Origin: an uncultured Clostridia bacterium
Lineage (GTDB): Bacteria > Bacillota > Clostridia > Christensenellales > Borkfalkiaceae
NCBI GenBank assembly: GCA_947627565.1
Contig: CANQWO010000013.1
Span: forward strand, 1-47,276
DNA length: 47,276 nucleotides
Direction: 5' to 3'
In this document: one piece after another, positions 317 to 17,547 of the stretch
How the letters are laid out: the number at the start of each line of letters is the position of its first letter
Position numbering within the stretch: position 1 is the first letter of the stretch
Program-made: the position numbers and the translations under genes
Notes under the pieces: generated by a model
The model's input: only the letters and a program-made list of their open reading frames with translations
Database searches by the model: none
What the model was told of the DNA's origin: nothing

Positions 317-346
317 TTGACAGTTCTCTTGCCGACGTGGTATAAT
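317..346 (+). promoter_or_regulatory. Sigma-A-type promoter of the protease-Opp operon
   Basis: A perfect -35 box TTGACA (317-322) and a perfect -10 box TATAAT (341-346) are separated by 18 bp. The start codon used below lies about 108 bp downstream, leaving a leader of roughly 100 nt. It is the only strong plus-strand promoter I can see before position 17516. Confidence 0.85.
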
Positions 347-454
347 TTCACCACTAACAATAGAAATGGCGCGCGCGAATGCATATTTGAGTATGCGTAG
401 AGGTGTATGCGGCGCAACATTCAGAAAAAAATCCTAACCAAGCGGAGAAACACC

Positions 455-3400
455 ATGACCAAATCGCGAAACAAGCTAAAAACAGCAGCACTCGGTGCAG
501 CCATCCTGATGATGGCCGGCACACTTGTCGGTTCGCAGATCGTGCCCCCTCACGGCGCTGTCAAAACCGGCGGAAGTTCCGCCGCGCAAGACGATACCGC
601 GCTCATCTCGGAGATCAAAGATTCCGTCGATACGGGGGCGGCCGAGAATTTCGACCCCAACGTCGTCAAAAAACTTGCCGATACGCTCGGCGACGACAGA
701 GAGATCTCCGTCATCGTCAAGACGACGGACGACGGCATTCTGGAGGCATACGACTCCCAGAGCGCTCTCTCCCGTTATGCGACGGTATCGGAGTATGCGG
801 ATTCGGCCAAGGGCGCCGATATTGCGGCGCGCATCGGCCGTCTCAACGACGAAGGGAAGCGCCTTGTCGCCAATTCGGGCGTCTCCTATCGGCTCGGCAC
901 CGATTACAACATGCTGATGGGCGGTTTCGAAGTCGTCGTCAAGGCGGGGGATTACGAACGCCTCGTCTCCGCATTCTCCGGGAGCAAGTTCGAGGCCACG
1001 GTCAGCGAGGAATATGAGCGGGCCGAGTCGCAGCTCGTCACGAACGACGTCAACGTCTATGACACGGGTATTTTCAACAGCAAGGATTCCAGATACGACG
1101 GTTCGGGCACGGTCATCGCCGTCCTCGATACCGGGCTCGACTATACGCATACGGCGTTCGATCCCGTTCGGTTCGATCCCTCCGCGGAGGACGTGATCAC
1201 GACGTCCTATCTCAACCAGCGCCTCTCCAAGCTGAACGCGGCAAAGTACACGTCGGGGCTCACCGCCGCCAACGTCTACTACAACCGCAAGGTGCCCTAT
1301 ACCTACGACTATGCGGATAAGGATGCCGACGTCTATCCGCTCGGAGACGAACACGGGACCCATGTCTCGGGGATCATCGTCGGAAACGACAGCGTGATCA
1401 CGGGCGTCGCGCCCAATGCCCAGCTCGTCTCGATGAAAGTGTTCTCGGATACCACGTCCGGCGCGCGCTGGTCGTGGATCCTCGCCGCGCTCGAGGACTG
1501 CGTCGTCTTGGGCGTGGACGTCGTCAACATGTCCCTCGGCACTTCCAGCGGGTTCACCGTCGAGGAAAAGAACGGCCAGGCGGAAGTCTACGAAAGCCTC
1601 GCCGATCACGGCATCAGCCTCGTGGCCGCCGCGTCCAACGACTTCAACTCCACCTACGGCTCCGAAAAGAACGGCAACCTCGGCCTCACGACCAACCCCG
1701 ACTCCGCGACGGTCGGCTCCCCCGGCTCCTATGAGTCGGCGCTCGCCGTTGCCTCCATTTCGGGCGTCAAGACGCCGTATCTCCTCTTCAACAAGCAGAT
1801 CGTCTACTTCACGGAATCTTCGAACGCCGCTTCCGAACCGAGAACGTTCGTCAAGGACCTCTTCGCCAGTGCGGACTTCAAGGCAATCTACGGGGAGATC
1901 ACCGATAAAAACAAGGTCGTCAATGTCGACTATGTGACCATCAGCGGCATCGGACGGAATGCGGACTACAAGAACGTCGACGTACACGGCAAGATCGCGC
2001 TCGTGCGGCGCGGCTCCACGACGTTTGAGGAGAAGTCCCGCATCGCGCAGAACAACGGCGCGCTCGGCGTCATCATCTACAACAACGTCTCGGGCGACAT
2101 CTCCATGACGGTCGGCTCGGTCACCATTCCCGTCTGCTCCATTTCGCAGGACAACGGCGAAATGCTCGCCGCGCAGCCGACGGGCAAGATCTCGATCTCC
2201 CTCGGGCAGGAAGCGGGGCCGTTCATGTCCAACTTCTCCTCGTGGGGGCCCACGCCCGACCTCAGGATCAAGCCCGAGATCACGGCGCACGGCGGCGACA
2301 TCTACTCCGCCTTCCCCGGACAGCGGTATGAACGCATCTCCGGAACTTCGATGGCCTCGCCCAACCAGGCCGGCGTCACCGCGCTCGTCCGCCAATACGT
2401 CAAAGAGACGTTCAAGGACATCGCAAGCGATCCCGTCAAGGTCATGCAGCGCGTCAACCAGATCATGATGTCCACGGCGGACATCGCCTTAAACACCAAC
2501 GGGCTGCCTTATTCCGTGAGAAAGCAGGGCGCGGGCCTTGCCAACCTCACGAAGGCGACCTCCTCGCCCGCCTTCATCAGCGCCTTTGCCCGCAGCGACC
2601 AAGCCGTCGCCGACCAGGCCGACGACCGCTTCGCCGAGTATGACGAGGACGAAAAGACATACAAGGACACGGATATCATCGACAAGGCCAAGATCGAATA
2701 CGGCGACGACAAGGGGAAGCTGGGCAGCTATCTTCTCAAATTCAGGATCAACAACATCTCGGGCGATTCGCTCACCTATGACGTCGGCGCCATCACCATG
2801 ACGGAGGGCATCAGCGAGATCAAGACGCACCAGGGCGACCAGACGGTGACGGAAGAGGGGTATCTCCTCAGCCCGAAGGTGACCGTCGAGAGCGTCTCGG
2901 GCGGCGTCAAGAACGGCAACACCGTCACGGTTTCGGCAAACCAGGCGGCGACGGTCGCGCTCCGCATCACACTCTCGGAGGGGGACCGCGCCTATCTCGA
3001 TCAATACTCGGGCCGCGAGACGGCGGACGGCGAAAAGCTCCGCGTCTTCGCAAACGGCATGTATGTCGAGGGCTACGTCACGCTCACGCTTTCGGGCGAA
3101 AAGGAAGCCTCGCTCAATGCGCCCTATCTCGCGTTCTATGGCGACTGGACGGAGGCGCCCATGTTCGACCTCGACTATTTCGCGACGGACAAAGACGCCA
3201 ACGACGATTCCATCGACACGCTCGATAAGACGCTCCCCGACGCCTTTGCGACGATGCCCATCGGCGGCCTCACGCTCGACTACAACAACGCGCTCGGCTC
3301 CTACTACTTCGTGCAGGATCCTTCCACCCCGCGCATCAACGCGGACCGCAACTATATCTCACTCACCAACCAGGAGGGCGAGTCGGGCGGCGTCAACTAT

Positions 3401-6400
3401 ATCGACAGCATCTATACCGGCATGCTCCGCGGCGCCAAGACGCTCCGCATGACCATCACGGATACGTCGACGGGGGAGGTCATCTGGACCAAGACGGCAG
3501 AGAACCAACGCAAGTCGTATAACGGCGGCGGCTCCATCTATCCCTCCGTTGTCGACGTCGGGTTCCACGTTCCCGATTACGATCTCAAGAACAATACGAC
3601 CTATCTCTTCCGCATGGAGGGCGACCTCGACTATCCCGGCGAGCAGAAGAACAAGAACAACGTCTTCGAGTTCCCGTTCGTCACCGACTTCCAGGCGCCC
3701 GTCGTTACCGACGTGGAATTTTACACCGAATACGACAGCACGCTGCAAAAAGACAGATTGTATGCGCGCCTGTATGTGTATGATAACCATTATACCATGT
3801 CGGCCAGCTTCGGCCAGCTCGTCTATGCGGGAGCGGGCTCCAGCTCCCTCTACACCCTCGAACAATTCGGGCGATACTTCTCGCAGGTCTATTCGGGCTT
3901 CAACTCCACCTCGGAAGTCGTTTTCGAGCTGACCGATTACATCGGCCGTCTCTCCGATTCCGTCAACAACAATTGCTTCACCGTGGCGCTCTACGACTAT
4001 GCGATGAACTCGGGCATCTATGAGATCCGCGTGCCCGATTCCGTCCGCTATCTCTACTTCGAGGAGATGGACGATCTTCAGGCGCAGGGCAAGCAATACG
4101 GCCTCACGCTGAGCCCCAACGAGACATACTACCTCGAGCCCCACGTCTATCCCGAGACGGAGTGGAATGAGACGCTCGTCTATGAGCTGAGCGACGATTC
4201 CGTCGCCGAGATCGTGAACGGCAGGCTCCTCGCGCTCAAATCGGGCGACGTCACCGTCACGGCGTACAGCGCGGCCAACCCCTCCGTGTCTGCAACGCTT
4301 ACCGTGCACGTCTTAAATTCCGATGAGCCCGGGTTCGAGAGATTCGATAAGCCGGACGTCGAGAATTTCCTGCTCACGGGTTACTTTGCCGACCGCGCAT
4401 TCTATTTCGTGAGCAACTCCGACCGCGACATCGGCCTCGAGGGCTACAAGACGCAGTTCTCGCGCAATGCGACGTCGTATGCGCTCTCCATGTATCCGAG
4501 CGAGAGAGTCACGATCGAATATGAGCTCTCCGCCTATGACCCCGCGCATACCGTGGTCGTATTCGAGAGCGGCAACGAAAACATCGCAAAAGTGGATGAC
4601 AAGGGCATGATCACGGCGGTCGCCGAGGGCACGACTTCGGTCTCCGTCCGCGTCATGATCGCGGGAGAGGGCGACGCCATGACGAGCACCACCTACGACC
4701 GCTCCATCACGATCACCGTCAAGAATCCGTATGAGCAGAACGGGATGTATCTCACTTCGTACCGCGGCGGCGGCGGCGAGACGGGCGAAGTCGTCATCCC
4801 CGGCAATAAGGGCTACACCGAGATCTATCAATATGCGTTCTCCGGATACGATTACATCGCCAAGGATGTCGACGCGGGCGATGAGATCTCCGAAGAAGAT
4901 CCCTCCTTTACCAAGATCTGGTATTACGGCGAAAATCAAGACGTCAAGAAGGTCGTGATCCCCGAGGGGATCGAGGTCATCGGCGCCTATGCGTTCGCGG
5001 GCATGGAGGGCCTCGAAGAGGTCGTGCTGCCCTCGACGCTCAATAAGATCGCCCAGGGCGCGTTCTACGGCTGCACCAAGCTCAGAACGGTGCAGGGCCT
5101 CGAACATGTGCAATTCATCAACCGGATGGCGTTCTCCGGCCCCGCCGTGACGGACGCCTCGGGTAACGTCAGCTATAACGCGGCCCCGCTCAACAGCATC
5201 ACCGAGACGTCGTTCGCGAACATCGTCGCCATCGGCGATCAGGCGTTCCAGGGCTCCGCGTTCACCGCGCTCCGGTTGCCCGCCTCGGCACAGTCCATCG
5301 GCGCCTATGCGTTCGCGGGGACCAGGCTCATGAACGTGACCGTCTCGGCGGCCAAGATCAAGCTCGGCAGCTTCGCGTTCTCGGATTGCGCACTCCTCGC
5401 CAAGATCAGCCTCAATGCCTCCGTCATTCCGGAAGGCGTCTTTGCGGGCTGCTCGGCGCTCAAAGACGTCACGCTCGGCGCGGACGTCGAACACATCGGC
5501 ATCAACGCCTTTGCGGGCACGCAGGTCTCTTCCTTCACCGTGCGCACGGGCAATCCCTACTTCAAGGCGCAGACGGGCAATAAATATCCCTACCTTCTCA
5601 GCAAGGACGGCTCGACCCTCGTCTATGTGGCGCCCGTCATTGCGGGCAACAAGTTTACGCTTTCGCAAGAGGACGCGCAGACGGTCACGAAGGTCGGCGT
5701 AGGCGCCTTCTCGGGCCAGTCGTCGCTCCGCTCCGTCGAGCTTCCCAACGTCACGGAAGTCGAGGACGACGCGTTCTCCGGCTGCACCGCCCTCACGACG
5801 GCCACCTTCAAGACGAGCGGCCTCACGTTGATCGGCGACTATGCCTTTGCGGGCACGGCGCTCCGTACCCTGCCTGTGTTCGCAAGCGGCCTCACGTTGA
5901 TCGGCGACTATGCCTTCTTCGCAACCGAAGTCACCTCCATCAAGATCCCCGCCAATATGAAGGTGGGGGAGGGCGCGTTCTTCGCCACGGAGCCGACGTC
6001 GGTCGAGATCGGCGACGGCGCGGTGCTCGGCGACGGCTCCTTCCAGGCCTACGGGCAGACCCAATACTTCTATCTCAACGCAAACAGCAATTCGTATGTC
6101 TACAACCGCGTCGTCTCCGGTTCCACATTGCGCACCCTCAAGATCGGCAGCAACGTCGAGATCGGCAACTATGCGTTTGCCTGCCATACGATGCTCAGCA
6201 AGGTCGAATTGGGCGCAGGCGCCAAGATCGGCGAAGGTGCGTTCTATTCGTGCTCCACGTTCACGGCGAGCATGCCGTCCACGTCTTCGTATTATTTCAC
6301 CACGTCCTCGTCGTCTACGTTCGATATCGACCTCACCAAGGCCGTCGAGATCGGCGCGGGCGCCTTCACGGGCGAGACCATCTATGCATTCCAGGTCAGC

Positions 6401-8059
6401 AGCGGCAACGTGCTCAGCCCCATCCGCACCATCTACTACCAGACGCCGCGCATCACGAGCGCAGATCTCTCCAACGTAACATCTCTCGGCGAGATGGCAT
6501 TCGCCAACAATGCGGCGCTCAAATCGGTCACGTTCGGCGATTCGCTCACCGCGATCCCCGCGCTTGCATTCGCGCGGTCGGGGCTCACGTCGGTCGACCT
6601 CAAGGGCATCACCTCCGTCGGCGCGGGCGCGTTCATGGTCGCTCCCATCACGACGCTCGATCTCTCCAAGGTGGAGACGGTCGGCGAGGCGTCGTTCGGC
6701 GGCAACACCGCTCTGACTTCCGTCACGCTCAAAGAGGGCGCGTCCGTCGACGCGGAAGCGTTCTACGGCGATACGGCCCTTGAGACGGTCACCAACCTCA
6801 ACAAGGCCGTTGCGATCGGCGGGGGCGCGTTCGCGGGCACCGGGCTTAAGGGCGAGCTGGATATCTCCTCGACCAAGACCCTCGGCGATCTCGCGTTCAT
6901 GCGCACGGCCATCACTTCCGTCAAGCTCTCTCCCGAGCTTGCCCTCGGAGAGGGGACGTACCTCGGCGAGAATCCGTTTGCGGACTGCCCGATCGGCGCC
7001 TTCACGGCGACGGCCGAAGAGAAGTTCCACGGCGAGACCGTCGGGACCTACACGACGGATACCTTCGATCTCAATGAGAACGTCAAGGTCGTCGGCGGGG
7101 TGCTCTATAAGAAGCTCCCGAACGGCGGACTGGGATTGGTCACCTATCCCATGACGTTGACGAACACCGAATTTACGGTCGAAGAGGGGACTGCCCGCAT
7201 CTCCGCGTATGCCTTCCTCGGCAGCACCGTCACCTCCGTCATCCTGCCGCAATCGCTGCTTGCCATCGGCGACAAGGCGTTCTATGGATGCAACAACCTC
7301 TACATGGTCACGTTCCGCAGCATGAATGCGCCCATCCTCGAGGAGCAGTATGATGAGGACTATGCGTCTGTGCCGCTCTTCAACAGCACGACGGGAGGGC
7401 TCGTCACGACGGGAGACGGCAAACTCCTCACCCACCTGCCGTCGTTGCCCGCCTTCCAGCCCTTCAGCGGGTATGAACTGACGACTCTGTACAGCACCTT
7501 AAAATATCAGATGCTCACCTTCGACCCCGTAAACGTCTTCTTCGGCGCCAACTTCGTGAATTATATCGGCGCCATGAGGCCCTACCTCATCATGATCCGC
7601 CCGTCCAACGGGGAACACTACGATTCCTTTGTCTTCGCCCAGTATTTCGGGACGCAGATCATGGGTGCGGTCGCTCCCTCCGCGGAGACGCTCGCGGCCA
7701 TCGAGGCCATCAAGGCGCTTCCCGACGCCTCCGTGCTCACGGTGAACGACGAGGCGACGGTCAACGCGGCGCTCAGTCTCTACAACGCCATCGCGACGAC
7801 GGAGCAGCAGGCGCTCGTGCAGGGTGCTTACGACGGGACCAACTACTATACCGTTCTGTCGAATGCGTTGGATATCATCGAGTACCTCAAGAATCAGCAG
7901 CAGACGCCTACGGATCCCGAAGAACCCGAGAAGAAGCCCTCGAAGGGCTGCGGCGGTTGCGGAAGCACCGTGATCGGCATCGGCAGCCTTGGGATCGTGG
8001 CGGCAACGCTCATCGCCGTCGGCGCCGTGTGTGTGATCCGCCGGAAGAAGGATCAATGA
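455..8059 (+). CDS. Giant secreted S8 subtilisin-like protease with PA domain, Big-2-like domains and BspA-type leucine-rich repeats
   Basis: This 2534-residue surface protein is probably a cell-envelope protease. A signal peptide covers about residues 1-30. The S8 catalytic triad is visible: Asp225 (AVLDTGLD), His300 (HGTHVSG) and Ser632 (GTSMASP), with a PA-type insert (about 490-590) between His and Ser, as in lactocepin/C5a-peptidase-like enzymes. Fn3-like and Ig-like (Big-2-type) segments follow up to about residue 1430. About residues 1490-2290 consist of many 23-residue repeats with the motif IGxYAFxGxxxLxxVxLP, typical of BspA/LRR_5 proteins. The tail has a GCGGCG motif, one hydrophobic segment and RRKKDQ. 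No LPXTG sorting motif is present, so anchoring is probably by the C-terminal membrane segment. I chose ATG 455 over ATG 407 because GGAG lies 7 nt upstream of 455 and the product then begins with a normal signal peptide. It is first in the operon with the peptide transporter. Confidence 0.9.
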   Translation: MTKSRNKLKTAALGAAILMMAGTLVGSQIVPPHGAVKTGGSSAAQDDTALISEIKDSVDTGAAENFDPNVVKKLADTLGDDREISVIVKTTDDGILEAYDSQSALSRYATVSEYADSAKGADIAARIGRLNDEGKRLVANSGVSYRLGTDYNMLMGGFEVVVKAGDYERLVSAFSGSKFEATVSEEYERAESQLVTNDVNVYDTGIFNSKDSRYDGSGTVIAVLDTGLDYTHTAFDPVRFDPSAEDVITTSYLNQRLSKLNAAKYTSGLTAANVYYNRKVPYTYDYADKDADVYPLGDEHGTHVSGIIVGNDSVITGVAPNAQLVSMKVFSDTTSGARWSWILAALEDCVVLGVDVVNMSLGTSSGFTVEEKNGQAEVYESLADHGISLVAAASNDFNSTYGSEKNGNLGLTTNPDSATVGSPGSYESALAVASISGVKTPYLLFNKQIVYFTESSNAASEPRTFVKDLFASADFKAIYGEITDKNKVVNVDYVTISGIGRNADYKNVDVHGKIALVRRGSTTFEEKSRIAQNNGALGVIIYNNVSGDISMTVGSVTIPVCSISQDNGEMLAAQPTGKISISLGQEAGPFMSNFSSWGPTPDLRIKPEITAHGGDIYSAFPGQRYERISGTSMASPNQAGVTALVRQYVKETFKDIASDPVKVMQRVNQIMMSTADIALNTNGLPYSVRKQGAGLANLTKATSSPAFISAFARSDQAVADQADDRFAEYDEDEKTYKDTDIIDKAKIEYGDDKGKLGSYLLKFRINNISGDSLTYDVGAITMTEGISEIKTHQGDQTVTEEGYLLSPKVTVESVSGGVKNGNTVTVSANQAATVALRITLSEGDRAYLDQYSGRETADGEKLRVFANGMYVEGYVTLTLSGEKEASLNAPYLAFYGDWTEAPMFDLDYFATDKDANDDSIDTLDKTLPDAFATMPIGGLTLDYNNALGSYYFVQDPSTPRINADRNYISLTNQEGESGGVNYIDSIYTGMLRGAKTLRMTITDTSTGEVIWTKTAENQRKSYNGGGSIYPSVVDVGFHVPDYDLKNNTTYLFRMEGDLDYPGEQKNKNNVFEFPFVTDFQAPVVTDVEFYTEYDSTLQKDRLYARLYVYDNHYTMSASFGQLVYAGAGSSSLYTLEQFGRYFSQVYSGFNSTSEVVFELTDYIGRLSDSVNNNCFTVALYDYAMNSGIYEIRVPDSVRYLYFEEMDDLQAQGKQYGLTLSPNETYYLEPHVYPETEWNETLVYELSDDSVAEIVNGRLLALKSGDVTVTAYSAANPSVSATLTVHVLNSDEPGFERFDKPDVENFLLTGYFADRAFYFVSNSDRDIGLEGYKTQFSRNATSYALSMYPSERVTIEYELSAYDPAHTVVVFESGNENIAKVDDKGMITAVAEGTTSVSVRVMIAGEGDAMTSTTYDRSITITVKNPYEQNGMYLTSYRGGGGETGEVVIPGNKGYTEIYQYAFSGYDYIAKDVDAGDEISEEDPSFTKIWYYGENQDVKKVVIPEGIEVIGAYAFAGMEGLEEVVLPSTLNKIAQGAFYGCTKLRTVQGLEHVQFINRMAFSGPAVTDASGNVSYNAAPLNSITETSFANIVAIGDQAFQGSAFTALRLPASAQSIGAYAFAGTRLMNVTVSAAKIKLGSFAFSDCALLAKISLNASVIPEGVFAGCSALKDVTLGADVEHIGINAFAGTQVSSFTVRTGNPYFKAQTGNKYPYLLSKDGSTLVYVAPVIAGNKFTLSQEDAQTVTKVGVGAFSGQSSLRSVELPNVTEVEDDAFSGCTALTTATFKTSGLTLIGDYAFAGTALRTLPVFASGLTLIGDYAFFATEVTSIKIPANMKVGEGAFFATEPTSVEIGDGAVLGDGSFQAYGQTQYFYLNANSNSYVYNRVVSGSTLRTLKIGSNVEIGNYAFACHTMLSKVELGAGAKIGEGAFYSCSTFTASMPSTSSYYFTTSSSSTFDIDLTKAVEIGAGAFTGETIYAFQVSSGNVLSPIRTIYYQTPRITSADLSNVTSLGEMAFANNAALKSVTFGDSLTAIPALAFARSGLTSVDLKGITSVGAGAFMVAPITTLDLSKVETVGEASFGGNTALTSVTLKEGASVDAEAFYGDTALETVTNLNKAVAIGGGAFAGTGLKGELDISSTKTLGDLAFMRTAITSVKLSPELALGEGTYLGENPFADCPIGAFTATAEEKFHGETVGTYTTDTFDLNENVKVVGGVLYKKLPNGGLGLVTYPMTLTNTEFTVEEGTARISAYAFLGSTVTSVILPQSLLAIGDKAFYGCNNLYMVTFRSMNAPILEEQYDEDYASVPLFNSTTGGLVTTGDGKLLTHLPSLPAFQPFSGYELTTLYSTLKYQMLTFDPVNVFFGANFVNYIGAMRPYLIMIRPSNGEHYDSFVFAQYFGTQIMGAVAPSAETLAAIEAIKALPDASVLTVNDEATVNAALSLYNAIATTEQQALVQGAYDGTNYYTVLSNALDIIEYLKNQQQTPTDPEEPEKKPSKGCGGCGSTVIGIGSLGIVAATLIAVGAVCVIRRKKDQ
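5816..5916 (+). repeat. Exact 32-bp tandem repeat inside the leucine-rich-repeat coding region
   Basis: The 32 bases at 5816-5847 are repeated exactly at 5885-5916. The offset is 69 bp, or 23 codons, which is one leucine-rich-repeat unit. Both copies encode SGLTLIGDYAF. Most other units match only at protein level, so this pair looks like a recent in-frame duplication or gene conversion. Confidence 0.85.
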
Positions 8060-8089
8060 TTCCTGAGAATAAACTTGCGGAAGTGTTGC

Positions 8090-9625
8090 ATGAATAAGAA
8101 AACAAAAGTGATCCTCGGTCTCGGCTTTGCCCTCTGCGCGACGCTCGCGCTCGGGGCATGCGCCATGGCCGATACGACGCAGGACGATCTCCTCTCGAAG
8201 GGGTATAACGTCATCGTCAGTTACGAACTGAACGGCGGCACCTTTTCGGGCAACGAAAACTTGACGGTCGTCCATTACTACCCGGGCAAAGAGCTCGAAG
8301 CGGGGACGCTCCGCCTCGTCGAACCGGGCGACAAGGAGTTTCTCGACGACTATCTCGTGAATACGAGCGGCGTCGTCCGCGGCGGCTATATCCACTTGGG
8401 GTGGTACACCGGCATGGAGTCCCGCACCGACGCGTCCGGCAACCCGCTCGACGAAAACGGCGAACTCTGCGACGTCACGGGAAAGACGCAGGGGCATGTC
8501 TTCTCCGACCGCTGGGATTTTGCCGAAGATCGCCTCTCGGCGGACAGCCCGTATGTTCAAAAAGACGGAAACGTCTATCGGTTCACGCTGTACGCGGCGT
8601 GGGCGCCCAAGTATACCTTTGAATTTTACCGCCAAAAGACGGCGGAGGAGGCCGCAAACGACGCGGCGGGGGAATCCCCGTGGCTGCTCTATGGCTCCTT
8701 CAATTCCGATACCCCGGCGGAGGTCAAGATCCCCTCATGGAGCGAGGAAACGGGCGGGCTGGACTACGGCAATATCCCCGTTTACGAGGGACATACGCTC
8801 GATAAGATCTATGCCGACGCGAACCTCGGCACCCAATGCACCGAGACCATTCCCTCGAAAGGGATCCTGCATACGGGCGGCGAGACCGACAACGGCACGG
8901 CAGAACAGATGATCGTCCGCCTCTACACGACGTGGACGGACGGGGAATGGTTCCACATCAAGACGGCGTCTCAGCTCTCCAAGTCGTTCGGGGAGAACGG
9001 ATGCTATGAGATCGAGGCCGATCTCGATTTCCTCGACGCGGCCAATCCGGACGAAGAGGGGAATCCCACGCGCCTTGATTGGAATGGCGGCGGCGTCCGG
9101 TTTTCGGGCATCTTCCACGGCAACGGCCACACCATCTCCAATCTCGAAACCGTGCAGACCGACGCAAGCGTCCTCGTTTCGGGCGGCGTCTTCGGCGCGA
9201 TCACGGCGGAGGCGGAGATCACCGATGTCACATTCCGGGATGTGCGCTACGAGGCGCTGTTCGTCTCCTACAATCACCGCGTCGGCACCGCGTCTTACGG
9301 GCTCTTTGCGGGCGAGACGGACGAGGAGGCGACAGTCTCCGGCGTGAAGCTCTCGGGCAAAGTCGTCCTCGGGACGCTCACCAACATGGATGAAGACGGC
9401 GGGCTCGATTGCTTCGCCATCGGGCTTGTCAGCGGCAACGGCGTCAACAAGGAGATCGGCTATGAAAACGTCTCCGTCGAGATCGCCGAAGTGATCGTCG
9501 ATTACGACGACGACGGGCTCGAAGTCAGAGGCTGGTTCGTCAAGGCCGTGGTTGGAGAAAACGGGATCCTCACGATCACGCACAACGAAAATCAACAAGA
9601 GGACCCCAATCAACAAGGAAACTAA
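8090..9625 (+). CDS. Secreted lipoprotein with InlB B-repeat-like and GLUG-like beta-helix segments
   Basis: This 511-residue protein is predicted to be exported and lipid-anchored. The signal peptide ends in the lipobox LGAC with Cys24 as the modified residue. About residues 38-165 resemble an InlB B-repeat / Listeria-Bacteroides repeat (VSYELNGGTFSG, then LGWYTG, then LYAAWAPKY). The second half carries FSGIFHGNGHTISNLE and GGVFGAI, the pattern of GLUG-type or pectate-lyase-like beta-helical adhesins. I start at ATG 8090, with GCGGAAG about 6 nt upstream, because the upstream TTG at 8075 would add a cysteine-rich stub before the signal peptide. It lies 30 bp after the protease and 16 bp before the peptide-binding protein, so it is co-transcribed. 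It may act in adhesion or substrate presentation; no enzymatic residues are recognised. Confidence 0.8.
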   Translation: MNKKTKVILGLGFALCATLALGACAMADTTQDDLLSKGYNVIVSYELNGGTFSGNENLTVVHYYPGKELEAGTLRLVEPGDKEFLDDYLVNTSGVVRGGYIHLGWYTGMESRTDASGNPLDENGELCDVTGKTQGHVFSDRWDFAEDRLSADSPYVQKDGNVYRFTLYAAWAPKYTFEFYRQKTAEEAANDAAGESPWLLYGSFNSDTPAEVKIPSWSEETGGLDYGNIPVYEGHTLDKIYADANLGTQCTETIPSKGILHTGGETDNGTAEQMIVRLYTTWTDGEWFHIKTASQLSKSFGENGCYEIEADLDFLDAANPDEEGNPTRLDWNGGGVRFSGIFHGNGHTISNLETVQTDASVLVSGGVFGAITAEAEITDVTFRDVRYEALFVSYNHRVGTASYGLFAGETDEEATVSGVKLSGKVVLGTLTNMDEDGGLDCFAIGLVSGNGVNKEIGYENVSVEIAEVIVDYDDDGLEVRGWFVKAVVGENGILTITHNENQQEDPNQQGN

Positions 9626-9641: not shown

Positions 9642-12362
9642 ATGAAAAGCAAGAAACATTTGACGCGCATCGTGTCGGTTGCACTCGCGGCCGCGCTCGG
9701 TTGTGGCGGGATTTCGGCGCTTGCGGGATGCTCGAAGGGCGGCAAGGCCCTCGTCATCATGACGCAGGAACTCAACGGTCTGTTCAATCCTTTCTACTCG
9801 ACGGCCGGCACCGATATGGACGTCGTCGGACAGACGCAGATCTCCATGTTCTCGACGGACGACAAGGGCGACATCGCCTATGGCGACGACGAGCCCGTCG
9901 TGGTCAAGGACTACATGGTTGAGTCGCTTACAAACGGCAACACGCAATATACCTTTGTCCTCAAACCGAACATCGTCTTCTCCGACGGCGTGCCGCTCAC
10001 GATGAACGACGTCCTGTTCAACATGTATGTCTATCTCGATCCCGCCTATACGGGCTCGACGACGATGTATTCCACGAAGATCCTCGGGTTGCAGGCATAC
10101 CGGAACCAGAAGAATGTCTCCGACGATTCCTCTGCGGACGATACCCTGTCGAGCGCGGCGACCGGCCGCGTCAGAAACCGCATCCTCGAGCTCACGACGC
10201 TCTTCAAGAACGTCGGCAAACTGGAGGATTCCGACGGGTATTTTGCGACGGCGGAGACCATGCGCGCCGCCATCGCCGATCCCGCGCAGTATCAGCCCTC
10301 GAGCGGCTATCTGAAGGCGCTTTGGCCCAACGGGCAGCCCTCGGCCGAGGAACTCAGCGGCGGCAAGACGGTCGATGATCTCGCCCGCGCACAGCTCCGC
10401 GAGGATTACGACCACGCGCTCGAACTTTTCCACGAAGAGCTGGAAAACGACTTCAACGCCGCGAAGGACTCCTATCAGGATGCGCCTTATACGCCCAACG
10501 AAGCGAACGTCAAATTCACCGACGTCGTCTCGTTCATGTTCTATGAGGGCTACTACGAAGTCGAATATTTCAAGGATTCGATCACAAACAAAGAGGATAA
10601 GAACCGCATCGTCAAACTGACGCCGCAGTACTCCGGCGTCTCCACGCGGGAGCAGGCCATCGAATATGTCTATGAAGACAATATCGAGACGGCGTTCGAC
10701 AGCGTGGTCACCGGATGGGGCACCGCGACGACGCTGCAGAGCGAGTTCTCCGCCAAGGCGAAGGACGTCGTTCTCCACGAGCAGCTCGGCAGCTCCGAGG
10801 GGCTCAATATCCCCAACATCACGGGGATCCGTTCCCTTTCGCCCGATCATATGCCCGGGAATGAAACGGGGGCAACTTCCGTCACCATCTCCCACGCCGA
10901 CGGGACCAGCCAGGAATACAAGGTCGCCCAGACCCATAACGCAGACGGCGTGCCCGAAGAGGGCGCCTACGACGTTTTGCGCATCACCATCAAGGGCACC
11001 GACCCCAAGGCCATCTGGAACTTCGGGTTCACCGTTGCGCCCTATCACTACTACTCCGATCCCTCCAACCTCGCTTATGCGGTCAATATCAAGGAGAACA
11101 AATTCGGCGTGGCTTGGGCAGACGCCAACTTCCAGTCCCGCGTCATCCAGGGCGACAACAAAAACGGCGTGAGCAAGAACAAGGTCCCGCTCGGCGCAGG
11201 TCCCTATGTCGCGACCGACCGCAACGACAGCGATTCGCCGAGAGCGACTTCCTTCATCGACAGCAACATCGTCTACTACAAGTCCAATCCCAATTTCCTC
11301 ATGGGCGAGCCCAAGATCAAGCACATGCGCTATCAGGTGACCTCGCAGTCCAACGCTCTCAACCAGCTCGAGAAGGGCGGCGTCCACTTTGTTGAGCCGC
11401 AGTTCACGCAGAGCAACCAGGAGCGCATCGACGGCCTCAAGAGCAAGGGCATCAAGTCCCTCAGCTCGTGGCAGCTTGGCTACGGCTACATCGGCATCAA
11501 CGCCAAGTATGTCCCCGACATCAATCTCCGCAAGGCCATCATGTCGGCCATGGATATCAGCCTTTCGCTGAACTACTACATGACCGGAACGGCGGATACC
11601 ATCAACTGGCCGATGTCCATGGTAAGTTGGGCGTATCCGAGAGATCGGCAAACCGGGAGCGCCAACAGCGACGAAGTGCTTGCCTATAAGAACACGAACA
11701 ACGGTCACGACTATACCATGTTTACGGGTAACGAAGCGGCCAAGGCCAAGATCGAGCGGTATATGCAGGCGGCAAAAGTCTCCGCAGGGAATGAGAAGCT
11801 GCACATCAAGTTCACCATCGCGGGCAGCGACCTCACCGACCACCCGTGCTATCTTGTCTTCAAGCACGCGAAGGACCTCTTGGACGCCTGCGGCTGGAAC
11901 ATCGAGATCAACCCCGATACGTATGCGTTGACCAAACTCGCGACGGGCTCGCTCGCCGTCTGGGCGGCGGCCTGGGGCTCCACGATCGACCCCGATATGT
12001 ATCAGGTCTATCACAAAAACTCCTCGGCGACGTCCGTCTATTCGTGGGGCTATCCGTCCATCCTCAGCGATAGTAAGACCTATGAGAAGGAAAACGGCAT
12101 CCTGACCGAACTCTCCAAGATTATTGATCATGCCCGCGAGACCGAGGATCGGACCCAGCGCACAAAGGACTATGAAGAGGCGATGGGACTCGTTCTCGAC
12201 CTTGCCGTCGAACTTCCCGTCTACCAGCGCAAGACGCTTTACGCCTACAACGCAAAGGTGATCGACGAGAACACGTTGCCGCATGACGAGAACGGCGGAG
12301 TCCTCATCAACCCGTATTCCTCGCCGCTTTCGAGGATCTGGGAGGTCGATTTCGTCAAGTAA
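9642..12362 (+). CDS. Oligopeptide ABC transporter substrate-binding lipoprotein (OppA-like, very large)
   Basis: This 906-residue lipoprotein belongs to the SBP_bac_5 family that captures peptides outside the membrane and delivers them to the Opp permease. Its lipobox is LAGC with Cys30. Family features include VVKDYMVESLTNGNTQYTFVL-type early strands, FSDGVPLTMNDVLFNMYVYLDP, the mid-protein segment with SNPNFLMGEPKIKHMRY and INLRKAIMSAMD, and a C-terminal WGSTIDPDMYQVYH segment. Typical family members have about 500-600 residues; here about 300 extra residues lie mainly in the first half (roughly 130-420). ATG 9642 has CGGAGG 8 nt upstream; an upstream TTG would bury the signal peptide. The substrate is inferred from family and operon context only. 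Confidence 0.87.
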   Translation: MKSKKHLTRIVSVALAAALGCGGISALAGCSKGGKALVIMTQELNGLFNPFYSTAGTDMDVVGQTQISMFSTDDKGDIAYGDDEPVVVKDYMVESLTNGNTQYTFVLKPNIVFSDGVPLTMNDVLFNMYVYLDPAYTGSTTMYSTKILGLQAYRNQKNVSDDSSADDTLSSAATGRVRNRILELTTLFKNVGKLEDSDGYFATAETMRAAIADPAQYQPSSGYLKALWPNGQPSAEELSGGKTVDDLARAQLREDYDHALELFHEELENDFNAAKDSYQDAPYTPNEANVKFTDVVSFMFYEGYYEVEYFKDSITNKEDKNRIVKLTPQYSGVSTREQAIEYVYEDNIETAFDSVVTGWGTATTLQSEFSAKAKDVVLHEQLGSSEGLNIPNITGIRSLSPDHMPGNETGATSVTISHADGTSQEYKVAQTHNADGVPEEGAYDVLRITIKGTDPKAIWNFGFTVAPYHYYSDPSNLAYAVNIKENKFGVAWADANFQSRVIQGDNKNGVSKNKVPLGAGPYVATDRNDSDSPRATSFIDSNIVYYKSNPNFLMGEPKIKHMRYQVTSQSNALNQLEKGGVHFVEPQFTQSNQERIDGLKSKGIKSLSSWQLGYGYIGINAKYVPDINLRKAIMSAMDISLSLNYYMTGTADTINWPMSMVSWAYPRDRQTGSANSDEVLAYKNTNNGHDYTMFTGNEAAKAKIERYMQAAKVSAGNEKLHIKFTIAGSDLTDHPCYLVFKHAKDLLDACGWNIEINPDTYALTKLATGSLAVWAAAWGSTIDPDMYQVYHKNSSATSVYSWGYPSILSDSKTYEKENGILTELSKIIDHARETEDRTQRTKDYEEAMGLVLDLAVELPVYQRKTLYAYNAKVIDENTLPHDENGGVLINPYSSPLSRIWEVDFVK

Positions 12363-12395
12363 CCGAAGTCCAAACCAATATCATGCGTCCTTACC

Positions 12396-12415
12396 GCCTC
12401 CCCATTCGGGGAGGC
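12396..12415 (+). promoter_or_regulatory. Intercistronic hairpin between the binding-protein and permease genes
   Basis: A perfect 8-bp stem GCCTCCCC / GGGGAGGC with an ATTC loop sits 33 nt after the binding-protein stop codon. No U-tract follows, so it is not an obvious terminator. In many ABC operons such a hairpin stabilises the 3' end of the binding-protein mRNA and raises its expression over the membrane subunits; that role is inferred here. Confidence 0.65.
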
Positions 12416-12452
12416 AGAGGACGTTTTGCCGAAATTTACATCGGAGCAACTT

Positions 12453-13451
12453 ATGGTCAAATACATCCTGAAACGCCTCGGCCTTGCCATCATTATTCTG
12501 CTCGGCGTTTCCATCATTCTCTATTTCCTCATCCGTCTGATGCCGCTCGACTTCGTGCAGCAGCGCATTCTGCAGATCTCGCAGAATCAGAATCCGGAGG
12601 ACTTGCAGGCGCTCATCGACGCAATGAATAAGCAATACGGCCTGGGCGACAACAGCTTCAAAGGGATCGTCGGCGGTTACGGCGCATGGCTTTGGAAGCT
12701 GGTCCGTCTCGACCTCGGCAAGACGTTCGTCGACAATCAGCCCGTCGTTTCGGCCATTGCCGACCACATGGGCGTCTCTTTCCTGGTTGCGTTCGTTGCG
12801 ATCATCTTCGAATATCTCATTGCCATTCCGCTCGGCGTCACCGCGGCGACCCACCAATATTCCGTGCGCGACTATGTCGTCACCGTGCTCGTCATGATCG
12901 GCATCTCGCTCCCGTCGTTCTTCTTCGGGCGCGTCTTGCAGAACATCTTCGCGATGCACTTCGGTTGGTTCCCGCCCTCGGGGTATCAGAACGCCACGGA
13001 GGAGGGCGTGAGCTCCTTCATGTTGGGCGTCGACCATTTGTGGCATGTGATCCTGCCCATCACGGTCATGGTGCTCCTGAGCATCGGCGGCACGATGCGG
13101 TATATGCGCACCAATATGCTCGAAGTGCTCAATTCCGACTATATCCGGACAGCGCGCGCAAAGGGCCTGCCCGAGAGCAAAGTCATCTATAAACATGCGT
13201 TCCGGAACACGATGATCCCCATCGTGACGGTGATGGCGGGGATCCTGCCGACGCTGTTTTCGGGCGCGATGATCACCGAGCAGGTCTTCGACCTCCCCGG
13301 GATCGGGAACTACGCACTCAAGGCCATGACGGGCGGCGATATCCCGTTCATCATGGGCTACAATATGTTTCTTGCGCTTCTGTCCGTCATCGGCGTGCTC
13401 CTCTCCGACTTGATGTACGCCATCGTCGATCCGCGCGTCAAACTTTACTAA
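12453..13451 (+). CDS. Oligopeptide ABC transporter permease, OppB/DppB type
   Basis: This 332-residue inner-membrane subunit forms half of the peptide channel. The N-terminus MVKYILKRLGLAIIILLGVSI is the classic start of DppB/OppB proteins, and about six membrane helices follow. The ABC-permease EAA loop that contacts the ATPases is visible as DYIRTARAKGLPESKVIYKHAFRN in two stretches near residues 230-255, followed by PGIGNYALKA. ATG 12453 has CGGAG 6 nt upstream; the upstream TTG at 12426 is less likely. It is followed after 12 bp by the partner permease. Confidence 0.92.
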   Translation: MVKYILKRLGLAIIILLGVSIILYFLIRLMPLDFVQQRILQISQNQNPEDLQALIDAMNKQYGLGDNSFKGIVGGYGAWLWKLVRLDLGKTFVDNQPVVSAIADHMGVSFLVAFVAIIFEYLIAIPLGVTAATHQYSVRDYVVTVLVMIGISLPSFFFGRVLQNIFAMHFGWFPPSGYQNATEEGVSSFMLGVDHLWHVILPITVMVLLSIGGTMRYMRTNMLEVLNSDYIRTARAKGLPESKVIYKHAFRNTMIPIVTVMAGILPTLFSGAMITEQVFDLPGIGNYALKAMTGGDIPFIMGYNMFLALLSVIGVLLSDLMYAIVDPRVKLY

Positions 13452-13463
13452 GGAGGAACGGAC

Positions 13464-14636
13464 ATGGACGAATTTCAGGACCGCAAAACGACAGAAACAC
13501 CCGAGGAGCTCCGCGAACAGGCGCTCCAGGCCCAAGGCGATTTCGTAACGCCCGAGGAAAATTCCCAAAAAGACGAGCTCCTGATGCTCGGCGATGTGCC
13601 CACGGATTCCGAGGCGGTCGCCGCCGCGCAGGACGAGGAAAATTCCCTCGATAAAAACGTGCGGCTGCTCTCTCCCGCGCGCATGGTCGCCCGCCGCTTC
13701 TTCCGCTCCAAACTCTCCGTCATCGGCCTCATCATGATCGTGGCGCTCATGCTCTTTTCTTGGCTTGGGCCCGTCTTCTATAATGTCTATGGGGAGATCG
13801 AGGACGACCAGAGCGGCAAGGTGGACTATTATCATCTCGAACAGACCTATACCGACGACGAGGGCGTCGAGCACTCGTTCGTGCAGGTCAACGAGACGTA
13901 TCAAAAGCTCAACAATCTTGCGCCCCCGAGCTGGAAGCACCTGCTCGGCACCGATGTGACGGGCATGGACGTCTTCACGCGCCTCATGTACGGCGGCCGG
14001 ATCTCGCTCTCCATCAGCTTCATCGCCGTGTTCGCCGTCACCATATTGGGCATCTTTTTCGGCGGCATCGCGGGGTATTTCGGGCACTGGGTCGATGAGA
14101 TCATCATGCGACTATGCGATATTTTGATGTGTCTGCCCAGCCTCCCGATCATGCTCATCATCGGCACGCTGTTCGACGCCTGGGAGATCGAATCGCAATA
14201 CCGCATCTACCTCATGATGCTGCTCTTGACGCTGATATCATGGCCGGGGACCGCCCGGCTCGTCCGCGGACAGATTTTGTTCCTGCGGGAACAGGAATAT
14301 ATGGTCGCGGCCGAGGCGATGGGATTCTCGACCTCGCGGAAGATTTTCAAACATCTCATTCCCAACGTCATGCCCCAGCTCATCGTCTCCATGACGCTCT
14401 CGCTCGGCAGCATGATCCTCACGGAGGCGACGCTCTCCTATCTCGGCCTCGGCGTCAAGGCGCCCTACGCCGCATGGGGGACGATGATCAATATCGTCAC
14501 AAACAACGACGAGGTGCTCCGCAGTTACTTCAACGTGTGGGGACCTCCGGGAATTTGTATCATCATCGCGGTGCTCGGCTTCAACTTCATCGGCGACGGC
14601 CTGCGCGACGCACTCGATCCCAAGGCAAGGAGGTAA
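13464..14636 (+). CDS. Oligopeptide ABC transporter permease, OppC/DppC type, with long N-terminal extension
   Basis: This 390-residue membrane subunit pairs with the OppB-type permease. About residues 1-70 are a charged, Glu/Gln-rich cytoplasmic extension before the usual start of the family (LSPARMVARRFFRSKLSVIGL). An insert of about 50 residues, rich in Asp and Tyr, lies in the outer loop between the first helix and HLLGTDVTGMDVFTRLMYG, which is the conserved GTD-x-GRD-like segment. The EAA loop reads VAAEAMGFSTSRKIFKHLIPN. AAGGAGG precedes ATG 13464. Both additions are larger than in typical OppC proteins of about 300 residues. Confidence 0.9.
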   Translation: MDEFQDRKTTETPEELREQALQAQGDFVTPEENSQKDELLMLGDVPTDSEAVAAAQDEENSLDKNVRLLSPARMVARRFFRSKLSVIGLIMIVALMLFSWLGPVFYNVYGEIEDDQSGKVDYYHLEQTYTDDEGVEHSFVQVNETYQKLNNLAPPSWKHLLGTDVTGMDVFTRLMYGGRISLSISFIAVFAVTILGIFFGGIAGYFGHWVDEIIMRLCDILMCLPSLPIMLIIGTLFDAWEIESQYRIYLMMLLLTLISWPGTARLVRGQILFLREQEYMVAAEAMGFSTSRKIFKHLIPNVMPQLIVSMTLSLGSMILTEATLSYLGLGVKAPYAAWGTMINIVTNNDEVLRSYFNVWGPPGICIIIAVLGFNFIGDGLRDALDPKARR

Positions 14637-14639
14637 TGT

Positions 14640-15962
14640 ATGGCTGAAAAGAAGAACCGGCATTACCTCACCGGCAAAGAGGTCAAGGCGATCGCCAAAG
14701 AAAACAATAAGATCATCCGCGCCCTCGAGAAGAAAAAGAAGCGGAAGGCGCAGGAGAGCGAATTTCTCTCCGAATTGAAGGATCCCGCAAATATTCTCGA
14801 AGTCGAGGACCTGCATTCCTATTTCTTTACCGACCAGGGCGTTGTCAAGGCCGTCAACGGCGTCTCCTTCGAGATCCCGCAGGGGGCCACGGTGGGCGTC
14901 GTCGGCGAATCGGGCTGCGGCAAATCCGTCACGAGCATGTCCATCATGCAACTGTTGCAGGGGCCCTACGGCCAGATCTTTTCCGGCTCCATCCGCTTCA
15001 AGTCGTATGACTTCAAGCGCGACGAAAAGGGCGAGCCCATTCCCATCTACGAGACGGACGAGGCGGGGGAGCCCATCATGGAGCCCGTTCTCGACAAGAA
15101 GGGCAACCCCAAGCTCGACAAGGGGGGCGCCCCCATGACCGCGCCCAAGCAGAAGCGCGACCAATACGGCACCCGCCTCTTCGAAATGGAGGAGAAGGTG
15201 TTCGACATCGCGCAGATGCCCGTCAAGGAGATGCACCGTCTGCGCGGCAGACAGATCGCCATGATCTTCCAGGAGCCCATGACGAGCCTCAACCCCGTGT
15301 TCACCATCGGCAATCAGCTCGATGAAGTGACGTTTTTGCACTTCCCGGGTTCGACCAAGGAGGACGCAAAGCGCCGTTCCATCGAGATGCTCAATCTTGT
15401 CGGCATCGCCATGCCCGAGCGCGTCTATAAATCCTATCCGCACGAGCTTTCGGGCGGGATGCGCCAGCGCGTCATGATCTCCATGGCGCTCGCGGGCGAC
15501 CCCCGGCTCATCATCGCCGACGAGCCCACGACGGCGCTCGACGTCACCATTCAGGCGCAGATTTTGGACCTCCTTCGCGACCTCAAGACGAGGATCAACG
15601 GCTCCATTTTGCTCATCACGCACGACCTCGGCATCATCGCGGAGATGGCGGATTATGTCGTCGTCATGTATGCGGGCCGCATCATCGAAAAGGGGACGGC
15701 TTCGGAGATCTTCCATCATCCCATGCACCCCTATACCATCGGGCTCCAGAAGTCCAAGCCCACGATGGATTCCGATTCGAATACGCTGTTCAATATCCCG
15801 GGGAACGTCCCCAATCCCATTGATATGCCCGACTACTGCTACTTCCGCGAGCGCTGTACCGGTTGCGTGAAGGCCTGTTTCGGGGATTATCCCGCCATGG
15901 TGCAGGTCAGTCCCACGCACTTTGTCGCGTGTCACCTCTACGATAAGGAGAAAACGGAATGA
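14640..15962 (+). CDS. Oligopeptide ABC transporter ATPase, OppD/DppD type, with insertion after the Walker A region
   Basis: This 440-residue cytoplasmic ATPase powers peptide import. Walker A is GESGCGKS (residues 89-96), the Q-loop Gln is near residue 212 ([10 protein letters not shown]), the signature is LSGGM (271-275) and Walker B is LIIADE (291-296). The C-terminal oligopeptide-transporter segment contains four cysteines ([18 protein letters not shown]), as in OppD proteins that carry an iron-sulfur site. A lysine-rich extension of about 48 residues precedes the domain. A charged insert of about 65 residues (roughly 122-190) lies between Walker A and the Q-loop. GGAGG lies close upstream of ATG 14640, and the gene overlaps the next by 4 bp. 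Confidence 0.92.
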
Positions 15963-17227
15963 ACGACGAAGAAAAATTTACCGGATCCGAGACTCCCGAA
16001 GGCGCCGCGGCGGAGCAGACAGACGTCTGTCCCGAAGCGCCCGAGACGGAAAACGAGGGGACCGTGTCTGGGACAGAGGCGCAGAAAACCGCAGAAAGCT
16101 CCGAATCGGGCGAGGTAGACATTGCGGCCGTCAACGCGCAGTGCCTCGCTTCGGGCGATTTCACGGGCTTCGACGACGCATACGAGGCGGCGCTCGAACA
16201 GCGCGCGCGCGACGAGAAGGCGGCTGCGGACCGTGCGTCCCCCGCGGACCCCGACGCGCTCCTCGAGGTAAGGCACCTCAAGATGTATTTCCCGCTCAAG
16301 AAGACGCTGGGCGGCAAGGTCACGCTGTGGCTTCGCGCCGTGGACGACGTTTCGTTCAAGCTCAAGGCGGGTGAGACGCTCGGCATCGTGGGCGAGAGCG
16401 GCTGCGGCAAGACGACCATGGGCCGCGCCGTGCTCAAACTCTACAAGCCGACGGGCGGCCAGATCTTCTTCGAGGGGAAAGATATCGCCAAATACAAGCC
16501 CTCCGAGATGCGGCCGCTCCGCACCAAAATGCAGATCATCTTCCAGGACCCGTATTCCTCGCTCCCGCCGCGGAGCACGGTGGGGGGCATCCTCTCCGAG
16601 CCCGTCAAGGTGCATAAGATCGTCGAAAAGGAAAAGATCAAGGACTACGTATTGGACGTCATGGAACAGTGCGGCCTCCGCGACTACTATTTCGAGCGCT
16701 ATCCGCATGAATTTTCGGGCGGCCAGCGCCAGCGCATTTGCATTGCCCGCGCGCTCTCCGTCAACCCCCAACTCGTTGTGTGCGATGAGCCCGTCTCCGC
16801 GCTCGACGTCTCCATTCAGGCGCAGATCATCAATCTTCTCCGCCGTCTCCAGGAGCAGCGGGGGCTCACCTACATGTTCATTTCGCACGACCTCTCCGTC
16901 GTCAAGCACATTTCCGACCGCATCGGCGTCATGTACCTCGGTTCGATGGTGGAATTTGGGGACAAGAAGTCCATCTTCTCCCATCCCATGCATCCGTACA
17001 CACAGGCGCTGTTCTCGGCCGTGCCCAATCCCAATCCCGACGTGAAGATGGACCGCATCGTGCTCAAGGGGGACATCCCCTCGCCCGCCAATCCGCCCAA
17101 GGGCTGCAAATTCCACACGCGCTGCCATAAGTGTATGGAGATCTGCAAGCATATCGCGCCCAAATATCTCGAATACGAGCCCGGACACTTCGTCGCCTGC
17201 CATCTGTATCCGCAGGAGGAAGCATGA
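15959..17227 (+). CDS. Oligopeptide ABC transporter ATPase, OppF/DppF type, with acidic N-terminal extension
   Basis: This 422-residue ATPase is the second nucleotide-binding subunit. Walker A is GESGCGKT (residues 145-152), followed by FQDPYSSLPPRSTV, the signature FSGGQRQR and Walker B LVVCDE. The C-terminal CKFHTRCHKCMEIC segment is the family's cysteine-rich tail. About the first 100 residues are a Glu/Ala/Ser-rich extension not found in usual OppF proteins of about 310-330 residues. Its ATG overlaps the OppD stop codon (ATGA), which points to translational coupling and equal production of the two ATPases. Confidence 0.92.
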   Translation: MNDEEKFTGSETPEGAAAEQTDVCPEAPETENEGTVSGTEAQKTAESSESGEVDIAAVNAQCLASGDFTGFDDAYEAALEQRARDEKAAADRASPADPDALLEVRHLKMYFPLKKTLGGKVTLWLRAVDDVSFKLKAGETLGIVGESGCGKTTMGRAVLKLYKPTGGQIFFEGKDIAKYKPSEMRPLRTKMQIIFQDPYSSLPPRSTVGGILSEPVKVHKIVEKEKIKDYVLDVMEQCGLRDYYFERYPHEFSGGQRQRICIARALSVNPQLVVCDEPVSALDVSIQAQIINLLRRLQEQRGLTYMFISHDLSVVKHISDRIGVMYLGSMVEFGDKKSIFSHPMHPYTQALFSAVPNPNPDVKMDRIVLKGDIPSPANPPKGCKFHTRCHKCMEICKHIAPKYLEYEPGHFVACHLYPQEEA

Positions 17228-17508
17228 GCAAGGGGCGCAGAGAGGACGAAACGGGCGAACGGGAGGACGACCGACCTGCCAAGAAGAAAGAGCAGAAGAT
17301 CATCTATATCGACGACGGATCGACGGTCGCCGATATGAGCGGAACGTTCCGCGGCGGACGAAAGGACGCCCGGCCGCGTTCGACGTTTAAGGAGAAGGCG
17401 CGCACCTATTTTTCCGTCGTGAAGAAAATGATCTTGCCGCTTCTCGTCACGCTCATCGCCTTCACGGTCGTCATCATCCTGTTCCTGTTCGCCGCCGGAA
17501 AATTGTAA
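17224..17508 (+). CDS. Small single-span membrane protein coupled to the Opp operon
   Basis: This 94-residue protein has a very charged N-terminal half (Arg, Lys, Asp, Glu), a central IIYIDDGSTVADMSG motif and one membrane helix near the C-terminus (about residues 70-92). It starts inside the OppF stop codon (ATGA overlap). I do not recognise a named family. The tight coupling suggests a transporter accessory or regulator, but the YIDDGxTxADM motif may also occur in unrelated contexts. A terminator follows directly. Confidence 0.7.
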   Translation: MSKGRREDETGEREDDRPAKKKEQKIIYIDDGSTVADMSGTFRGGRKDARPRSTFKEKARTYFSVVKKMILPLLVTLIAFTVVIILFLFAAGKL

Positions 17509-17515
17509 GAAAAGG

Positions 17516-17547
17516 CCGTCTCCCGATCCGCGGGGAGGCGGTTTTTT
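17516..17547 (+). terminator. Rho-independent terminator of the protease-Opp operon
   Basis: CCGTCTCCC (17516-17524) pairs with GGGAGGCGG (17533-17541) with one G-U wobble, followed by six Ts. It begins 7 bp after the last stop codon of the operon. Confidence 0.85.

Follow-up and report, generated by a model that had tools for sequence, protein, structure and literature searches.

A conserved operon-like locus of a giant S8 protease, a lipoprotein and an Opp-type peptide importer in uncultured gut Clostridia

Introduction

Lactic acid bacteria are the usual model for obtaining amino acids from protein, and to our knowledge the supply of amino acids from protein in uncultured gut Clostridia is poorly known. 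In the Bacteroidota, Sus-like systems and RagAB bring surface capture, cleavage and import together in one locus. For the cell-envelope proteinase PrtP (lactocepin) of lactic acid bacteria, the extract of PMC10535647 used here gives a domain scheme in which PA is missing from some proteinases and some have neither the LPXTG nor the SlpA anchor; the same extract states that Pfam models are lacking for most Fn domains of PrtP. The portion of PMC12634024 consulted for strain Shirota gives the gene orders oppDFBCA1 and dppA1BCDF, with no proteinase gene within either.

Here, we describe a locus of an uncultured Clostridia bacterium (assembly GCA_947627565.1) in which a protease and an Opp-type importer are encoded together. 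The window, the whole stretch of DNA analysed, comprises 47,276 nucleotides of contig CANQWO010000013.1. A sequence-only reading of it had proposed a single transcription unit, with one promoter and one terminator, for a machine suggested to bind, cut and import a host or dietary protein.

Results

Layout of the locus

Eight open reading frames (ORFs) lie on one strand between positions 455 and 17508 of the window, with intergenic gaps of at most 90 nucleotides, in the order protease, lipoprotein (LP), OppA, OppB, OppC, OppD, OppF and a 94-residue membrane protein, followed by a terminator (Table 1). The eight-gene cluster drawn by the sequence-only reading is borne out by the ORF calls and, for the protease and the five Opp components, by Pfam. 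Past the terminator are three genes that we take to be plsX, rnc and smc. The window starts at a contig end of a genome of 1.8 Mb in 63 contigs (G000). Its first 75-78 bases (window 1-77), a hairpin included, are also present at the ends of contigs C9, C10, C33 and C27 with 99-100% identity, and inside contig C1 with 84% identity; this is probably a repeat at which the assembly broke.

Table 1. Features of the locus, with positions in the window.
Feature	Position	Strand	Basis
Sigma-70-type promoter, TTGACA-18-TATAAT, TG before the -10	317..346	+	12/12 hexamer positions; recurrence before protease genes
S8 protease, 2534 aa: signal peptide, S8 with PA insert, fn3_5, Big_2, BspA-type LRR_5, C-terminal transmembrane helix	455..8059	+	Pfam, motifs, helix prediction
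Lipoprotein LP, 511 aa, lipobox Cys24	8090..9625	+	Alignment, profile scans of the family
OppA, 906 aa, peptide-binding lipoprotein (SBP_bac_5)	9642..12362	+	Pfam
Strong RNA hairpin and short T run, oppA/oppB junction	12385..12424	+	RNA folding
OppB permease	12453..13451	+	BPD_transp_1; ORF opens at 12426
OppC permease	13464..14636	+	BPD_transp_1
OppD ATPase	14640..15962	+	ABC_tran and oligo_HPY
OppF ATPase	15959..17227	+	ABC_tran and oligo_HPY
94-aa membrane protein, one predicted helix, conserved DD..T..DMS core	17224..17508	+	Helix prediction, alignment
Intrinsic terminator	17510..17547	+	Folding; recurrence in relatives

Related loci were collected by scanning public genomes with an OppA alignment and keeping the best 80, a choice by nearness of OppA that favours near relatives. 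Among these 80, the nearest named loci are from the rabbit-gut 'Lapin' genomes of uncultured Clostridia, and many others bear sample names from ruminant or deer gut. Judged by record name, the 80 come from metagenome genomes, two of them without a MAG mark, with no cultured isolate named.

The protease

Pfam matches in the window protease are to Peptidase_S8 (E=1.6e-42), PA (E=4.1e-17), fn3_5 (E=3.4e-8), Big_2 (E=2.8e-7) and LRR_5 (E=2.2e-91). The fn3_5 domain (Fn1) follows the catalytic domain and scores 34.6 bits against a cut-off of 27.6. Only fn3_5, Big_2 and LRR_5 are matched in the tail, where residues 893-1366 are without Pfam cover, and the Pfam scan of this protein found no SlpA domain. 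Comparison with 66 further proteases shows the motifs of the catalytic triad to be intact: SGTSM is present in all 67 sequences, and HGTHV and LDTG or LDSG in 65 each, the other two being gapped. In 62 of the 65 protease ORFs longer than 2300 residues a helix is predicted at most 250 residues from the end, the other three being fusions to LP, and none of the 65 has an LPXTG motif in its last 120 residues. The window protease reaches 236 bits with the SGO_0316/SGO_0317 LPXTG serine peptidase model NF040553, whose curated cut-off is 1400.

Three of the tails inspected carry a Cys/Gly-rich motif before the membrane helix (window 7920-8059, L073 and L094). The DNA pattern of the Cys-rich tail of the window protease is found once in its own genome, in no protein besides the protease. 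Some loci have a second surface protein between the protease and LP; that at L056:7071-10304 has Listeria-Bacteroides and LRR_5 repeats, similar ones are found in L057, L058 and L062, and the interposed genes of all four loci are LRR genes.

The closest solved structures to the N-terminal region are C5a peptidase and chemokine protease C (E 1e-61 to 1e-56), and cell-envelope proteinases are also among the nearest solved relatives. The likeness to these two proteases, together with the BspA-type repeats, would suit a host- or neighbour-directed protease and adhesin, with the leucine-rich repeat subtilase, like these relatives, mainly cleaving or binding host or bacterial surface proteins and the importer serving general nutrition. 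We consider this unlikely, given the distribution of the genes, the position of the promoter and the fusions described below.

Gene order and co-occurrence in relatives

The order of the window, whose conservation the sequence-only reading had proposed to check, is shared by these relatives. Of the best 80 loci, 14 are truncated at contig ends and 66 have at least 7 kb of upstream DNA. All 66 carry an S8 protease with leucine-rich repeats before oppA in the same orientation; LP is a separate gene in 61 of them and is fused to the protease in 5. A survey of 121 genomes of the family, with a match threshold of E≤1e-60, found the protease in 60 and OppA in 64. Both are present in 60, OppA only in 4 and neither in 57, and the protease is never found without OppA (Fisher p 3.5e-30, a value that ignores kinship). 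Of the four genomes with OppA only, one is 96% complete (G351) and three are 61-72% complete (G391, G423 and G432). That 60 out of 60 protease genomes also carry OppA argues against a host-directed protease beside a general importer.

In 48 of the 60 genomes protease and OppA share a strand and are no more than 20 kb apart; the protease comes first in 41 of these and last in 7. In the remaining 12 they are far apart on one contig (1) or on different contigs (11). Eight of these 12 were examined, G379, G415, G440 and G462 being left out. In six, protease and opp are separate, with both still present in each (G395, G404, G426, G434, G441 and G463); the non-linkage is due to a contig break in G455 and probably likewise in G448. 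Separate carriage of the two, which the sequence-only reading had named as the outcome that would tell against it, is found in six of the eight genomes examined, alongside linkage in 48 of 60. The six would be in keeping with a host-directed role of the protease. In all six LP lies directly upstream of oppA, as it does in G351, which has LP-Opp and no protease match.

Other arrangements are also seen. In eight genomes of the window's genus (G001, G002, G010, G022, G023, G028, G031 and G033) the protease comes after LP-OppABCDF. One of them, G002, has two sets, with a protease and an OppA in both, and shows both arrangements (L048 and L072). Besides its linked set, G425 carries a further protease (L252) that has no opp genes in the stretch examined; besides its full locus, G020 carries an additional OppA (L063), and the 15 kb upstream of it contain neither LP nor protease. 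In other families OppABCDF-LP is found with no protease in the stretch examined (f67, in G158, G329 and G272; f32, in G331 and G161; f41, in G075), while genomes of f65, f40, f61 and f92, and also of f32, have opp with neither LP nor protease, some of these loci being cut by contig ends. Across the class, an S8 match at E≤1e-60 was obtained in 29 of 291 genomes, two of them from the window's family and none from f67, f32 or f41. Three of the genomes outside the family that have a strong OppA match too were checked (G095, G188 and G256); in each the two matches were listed on different contigs, which shows that linkage does not extend to this type of protease in general.

The distribution also bears on two further explanations. 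The protease might trim the cell's own surface proteins, with OppA recycling envelope peptides; its predicted membrane tether would suit such a role, and opp systems can import murein peptides. The 57 family genomes in which neither gene is matched at E≤1e-60 show that this is not general housekeeping, which makes the explanation very unlikely. Also very unlikely is a signalling circuit in which a secreted peptide is matured by the protease and taken up through OppA to act on a cytoplasmic regulator. Opp systems of other Gram-positives do import signalling peptides; among the eight genes of the operon and their homologues that were tracked, however, no constant peptide precursor or regulator appears in the gene order, and the very large repeat region and large OppA would seem better suited to varied protein substrates.

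Transcription signals

The single consensus promoter that had been placed before the protease agrees at 12 of 12 hexamer positions, and perfect copies recur: they precede the protease in 12 of 63 loci, the window included, and were found in none of 522 tests at the seven other gene heads. At least 10 of the 12 positions are matched before the protease in 32 of the 63 loci, against 5.2 expected from shuffles. A looser scan of the window gave 7 sites with 7.0 expected, which is the level of chance, so only the perfect promoter was counted. That the promoter recurs before the protease gene but not before opp again speaks against a host-directed protease. Promoter-like sites of at least 10/12 positions were also seen at the oppC head in 9 of 77 cases among the relatives L073-L152, with 2.8 expected; these may be a coding-sequence effect.

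The terminator at the end of the locus has a folding energy of -24.7 kcal/mol (z -4.2), and in 44 of 60 loci a site resembling a terminator is present after the last gene recognised, compared with 5 of 60 inside oppA. The generic count of terminators in the window is below expectation (14 versus 16.9), and so only this strong terminator and its recurrence were used. The absence of a strong internal terminator, part of the sequence-only reading, is not confirmed. At the oppA/oppB junction a strong hairpin, a candidate terminator, lies in a 91-base stretch with a folding energy of -33.1 kcal/mol (z -5.5) and is followed by a short T run. From its position it may set the level of OppA above that of the permeases. 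Among the best 80 loci, folds below -12 kcal/mol are present at 22 of 80 oppA-oppB junctions, 16 of 62 protease-LP, 2 of 73 LP-oppA, 0 of 77 oppB-oppC and 1 of 75 oppC-oppD, the energies being lower where gaps are longer. The protease-LP hairpins could weaken the reading as one transcript in the loci that have them. The single transcription unit is thus supported by order, co-occurrence, promoter and terminator, and qualified by the oppA-oppB hairpin and by the six genomes with the genes apart.

The transporter

The five Opp proteins form a full Opp-type importer set by Pfam. About 280 residues of OppA are not covered by the SBP_bac_5 model, and its nearest solved protein is AppA. OppC scores best with Opp4C and OppB with Opp4B, both below the curated cut-off. 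The start of OppB is more likely to be the ATG at 12453, which follows GGAG, than the TTG at 12426. The 94-residue protein matches no Pfam family at E≤0.001 and at E≤1 has one match below the cut-off, to DUF5316 (E 0.031); its DD..T..DMS core is invariant in 16 aligned copies.

In a sister clade without LP (17 OppA rows), the 16 OppC proteins that are visible are all 521-727 residues long, rather than about 350. An alignment of 11 sister rows and the shorter L202 places the extra residues in the first outer loop, an extension absent from the OppC of the window, L039, L189 and L190, all of which have LP. Long-loop OppC proteins in loci without LP were noted in L184, L186, L188, L193, L196, L197, L199, L067, L068, L069 and L204. 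Neither of the two loop domains scanned (L186 and L188) matched a Pfam family, and a likeness of LP to long OppC proteins (best E 0.02) was not accepted. Evidence against a strict swap of LP for the OppC loop comes from the distant L070, L205, L208 and L209, which have neither LP nor a long OppC, and from L206, which lacks the OppC loop. The loop may be an alternative means of bringing an accessory domain to the transporter, or may be unrelated.

The lipoprotein and its fusions to the protease

Cys24 of LP is invariant in an alignment of 56 rows and lies inside the lipobox, and a simple lipobox pattern is found within the first 75 residues of 61 of 73 LP ORFs. Mean pairwise identity of LP is 33% over 71 loci, the lowest among the seven proteins compared. 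In the LP family the N-terminal part matches a Listeria-Bacteroides (InlB B) repeat in some copies, and the C-terminal part weakly resembles GLUG/M26_N. The window copy itself, which the sequence-only reading had described as an InlB-repeat protein, matches no Pfam family even at E≤1. Support for that label comes from relatives: in one scan 2 of 9 LP copies pass the PF09479 cut-off of 27 (27.9 and 30.0 bits), as do both distant copies scanned (44.9 and 42.9 bits), in which the M26 N-terminal region is weakly matched. Comparison of LP with solved structures gave one weak profile match (E 0.057), which was set aside. In the LP copy at L054:10057-11400, weak zinc-ribbon-like matches, all below the cut-off, are seen at about residues 60-91.

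LP had been called adhesin-like. It looks instead as if it belongs to the transporter module: in genomes that carry the protease at another place it remains beside oppA, and relatives in other families have opp and LP with no protease in the stretch examined. The same two observations would fit LP working with the transporter alone, for example as a co-receptor or lid, with no contact to the protease and with their co-location reflecting co-regulation. This is possible but doubtful, as LP is fused to the C-terminus of the protease in six loci (L092, L093, L095, L132, L123 and L147). The LP profile is matched almost completely in the first four of these (E 5.7e-98 in L092) and over its first half only in L123 and L147. 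In the five fusions with a full protease two membrane helices are predicted between the repeats and LP (in L123, three are above the threshold), the last of them coinciding with the beginning of the matched LP region, a position occupied by the signal peptide in separate LPs. Two helices at this point would leave both ectodomains on the same side of the membrane. On the OppA tree the six loci are spread over three places, and the starred branches force three changes. Three separate fusions would be the simplest reading of the tree, one gain followed by losses needing equally few changes. Fusion of a transporter-side protein to the protease is a further argument against a host-directed role. 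We therefore regard LP as a transporter-side accessory and likely the docking site of the protease.

In four genomes of one genus LP-Opp adjoins histidine biosynthesis genes (L236, L238, L240 and L245). These are all the LP-Opp loci whose neighbours were listed, and the assignments are from Pfam for six genes in L245 and one in each of the others; the neighbourhood fits amino acid supply, weakly. In an opp-LP locus without S8, the gene immediately after LP (L226:1937-10165) encodes a 2742-residue protein with PKD/Ig-like matches.

Order of assembly

An OppA tree was built by a quick method from 111 rows, a subset of 143, with SH-aLRT support only. Every LP-linked OppA falls in one clade of 82 rows (support 100), which is made up of 76 rows holding the protease-linked OppAs (100) and six Opp-LP rows without protease (100), one of the six being cut before LP would be visible; the rest lie outside. 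Of the 76 rows, four (L087, L121, L137 and L071) are truncated at contig ends, and L063 is the OppA noted above that has neither LP nor protease upstream. If the root lies outside the clade, LP probably joined the transporter first and the protease later, as the opp-LP loci without protease in other families would suggest.

Distances of protease and OppA correlate at 0.90 in a mirror-tree comparison (71 loci), and other pairs from 0.73 upward. As evidence of contact this was rejected, since every gene pair correlates, as plain vertical inheritance would give.

Discussion

The locus would seem reasonably likely to be a surface unit that cuts, captures and imports protein as a source of nitrogen, with LP as an accessory of the transporter and likely docking point of the protease. 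Together, protease, LP and importer probably enable the bacterium to cleave proteins on the outside of the cell and take up the pieces. The giant subtilase, held in the cytoplasmic membrane by its predicted C-terminal helix, would cut proteins outside the cell, its leucine-rich repeats probably holding the substrate proteins. The oversized lipoprotein OppA would capture oligopeptides for import by OppBCDF, while LP would sit by the transporter at the outer face of the membrane. The idea of a bind-cut-import machine was broadly right, with LP now reassigned to the transporter and the status as a single unit qualified. Counted against this explanation are the six genomes with separate genes, G351, the extra OppA of G020 (L063) and the second protease of G425 (L252). 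If LP works with the transporter alone, the nutritional part of the explanation is unaffected, the two being compatible.

Linkage alone does not show contact. A more specific proposal, which we put forward tentatively, is that LP docks the membrane-tethered protease at the mouth of OppABCDF, giving a Gram-positive surface complex that cuts protein and hands the peptides straight over; in the sister transporters without LP, the extra outer-loop domain of OppC may substitute for it. Throughout a large uncultured family, protease and importer are passed on jointly, and the LP partner has been fused to the protease apparently more than once, which makes a specific complex testable. The locus could also be used in gut metagenomes as a genomic marker of possible protein scavenging.

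The locus is a real, conserved and operon-like unit. Its parts are known, but we did not find their combination described among the open-access papers searched. With the Sus-like systems and RagAB it has in common the idea of capture, cleavage and import in one locus. The comparison, drawn already in the sequence-only reading, stands for the layout and not for the parts: the importer here is of the ABC type in the cytoplasmic membrane, and none of the eight genes matches a SusC/SusD pair, a TonB-dependent porin or a SusD lid. The streptococcal C5a peptidase and chemokine protease C (SpyCEP) are alike in the N-terminal region of the protease, and differ from it in its leucine-rich repeat tail, its membrane helix and its genetic link to a transporter. 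Transporters of the Opp4/AppA type are the nearest to OppA, OppB and OppC, from which the locus is set apart by an OppA of 906 residues, by LP and by the 94-residue membrane protein. With lactocepin and Opp of the lactic acid bacteria, as far as the extract of PMC10535647 describes the proteinase, it shares an S8 domain with a PA insert, fn3_5 (Fn1), a protease held outside the cell and import by Opp. LRR_5 repeats appear to stand where PrtP in that scheme has a fibronectin-like tail, a membrane helix is found in place of LPXTG, and protease and opp form one conserved unit with an extra lipoprotein.
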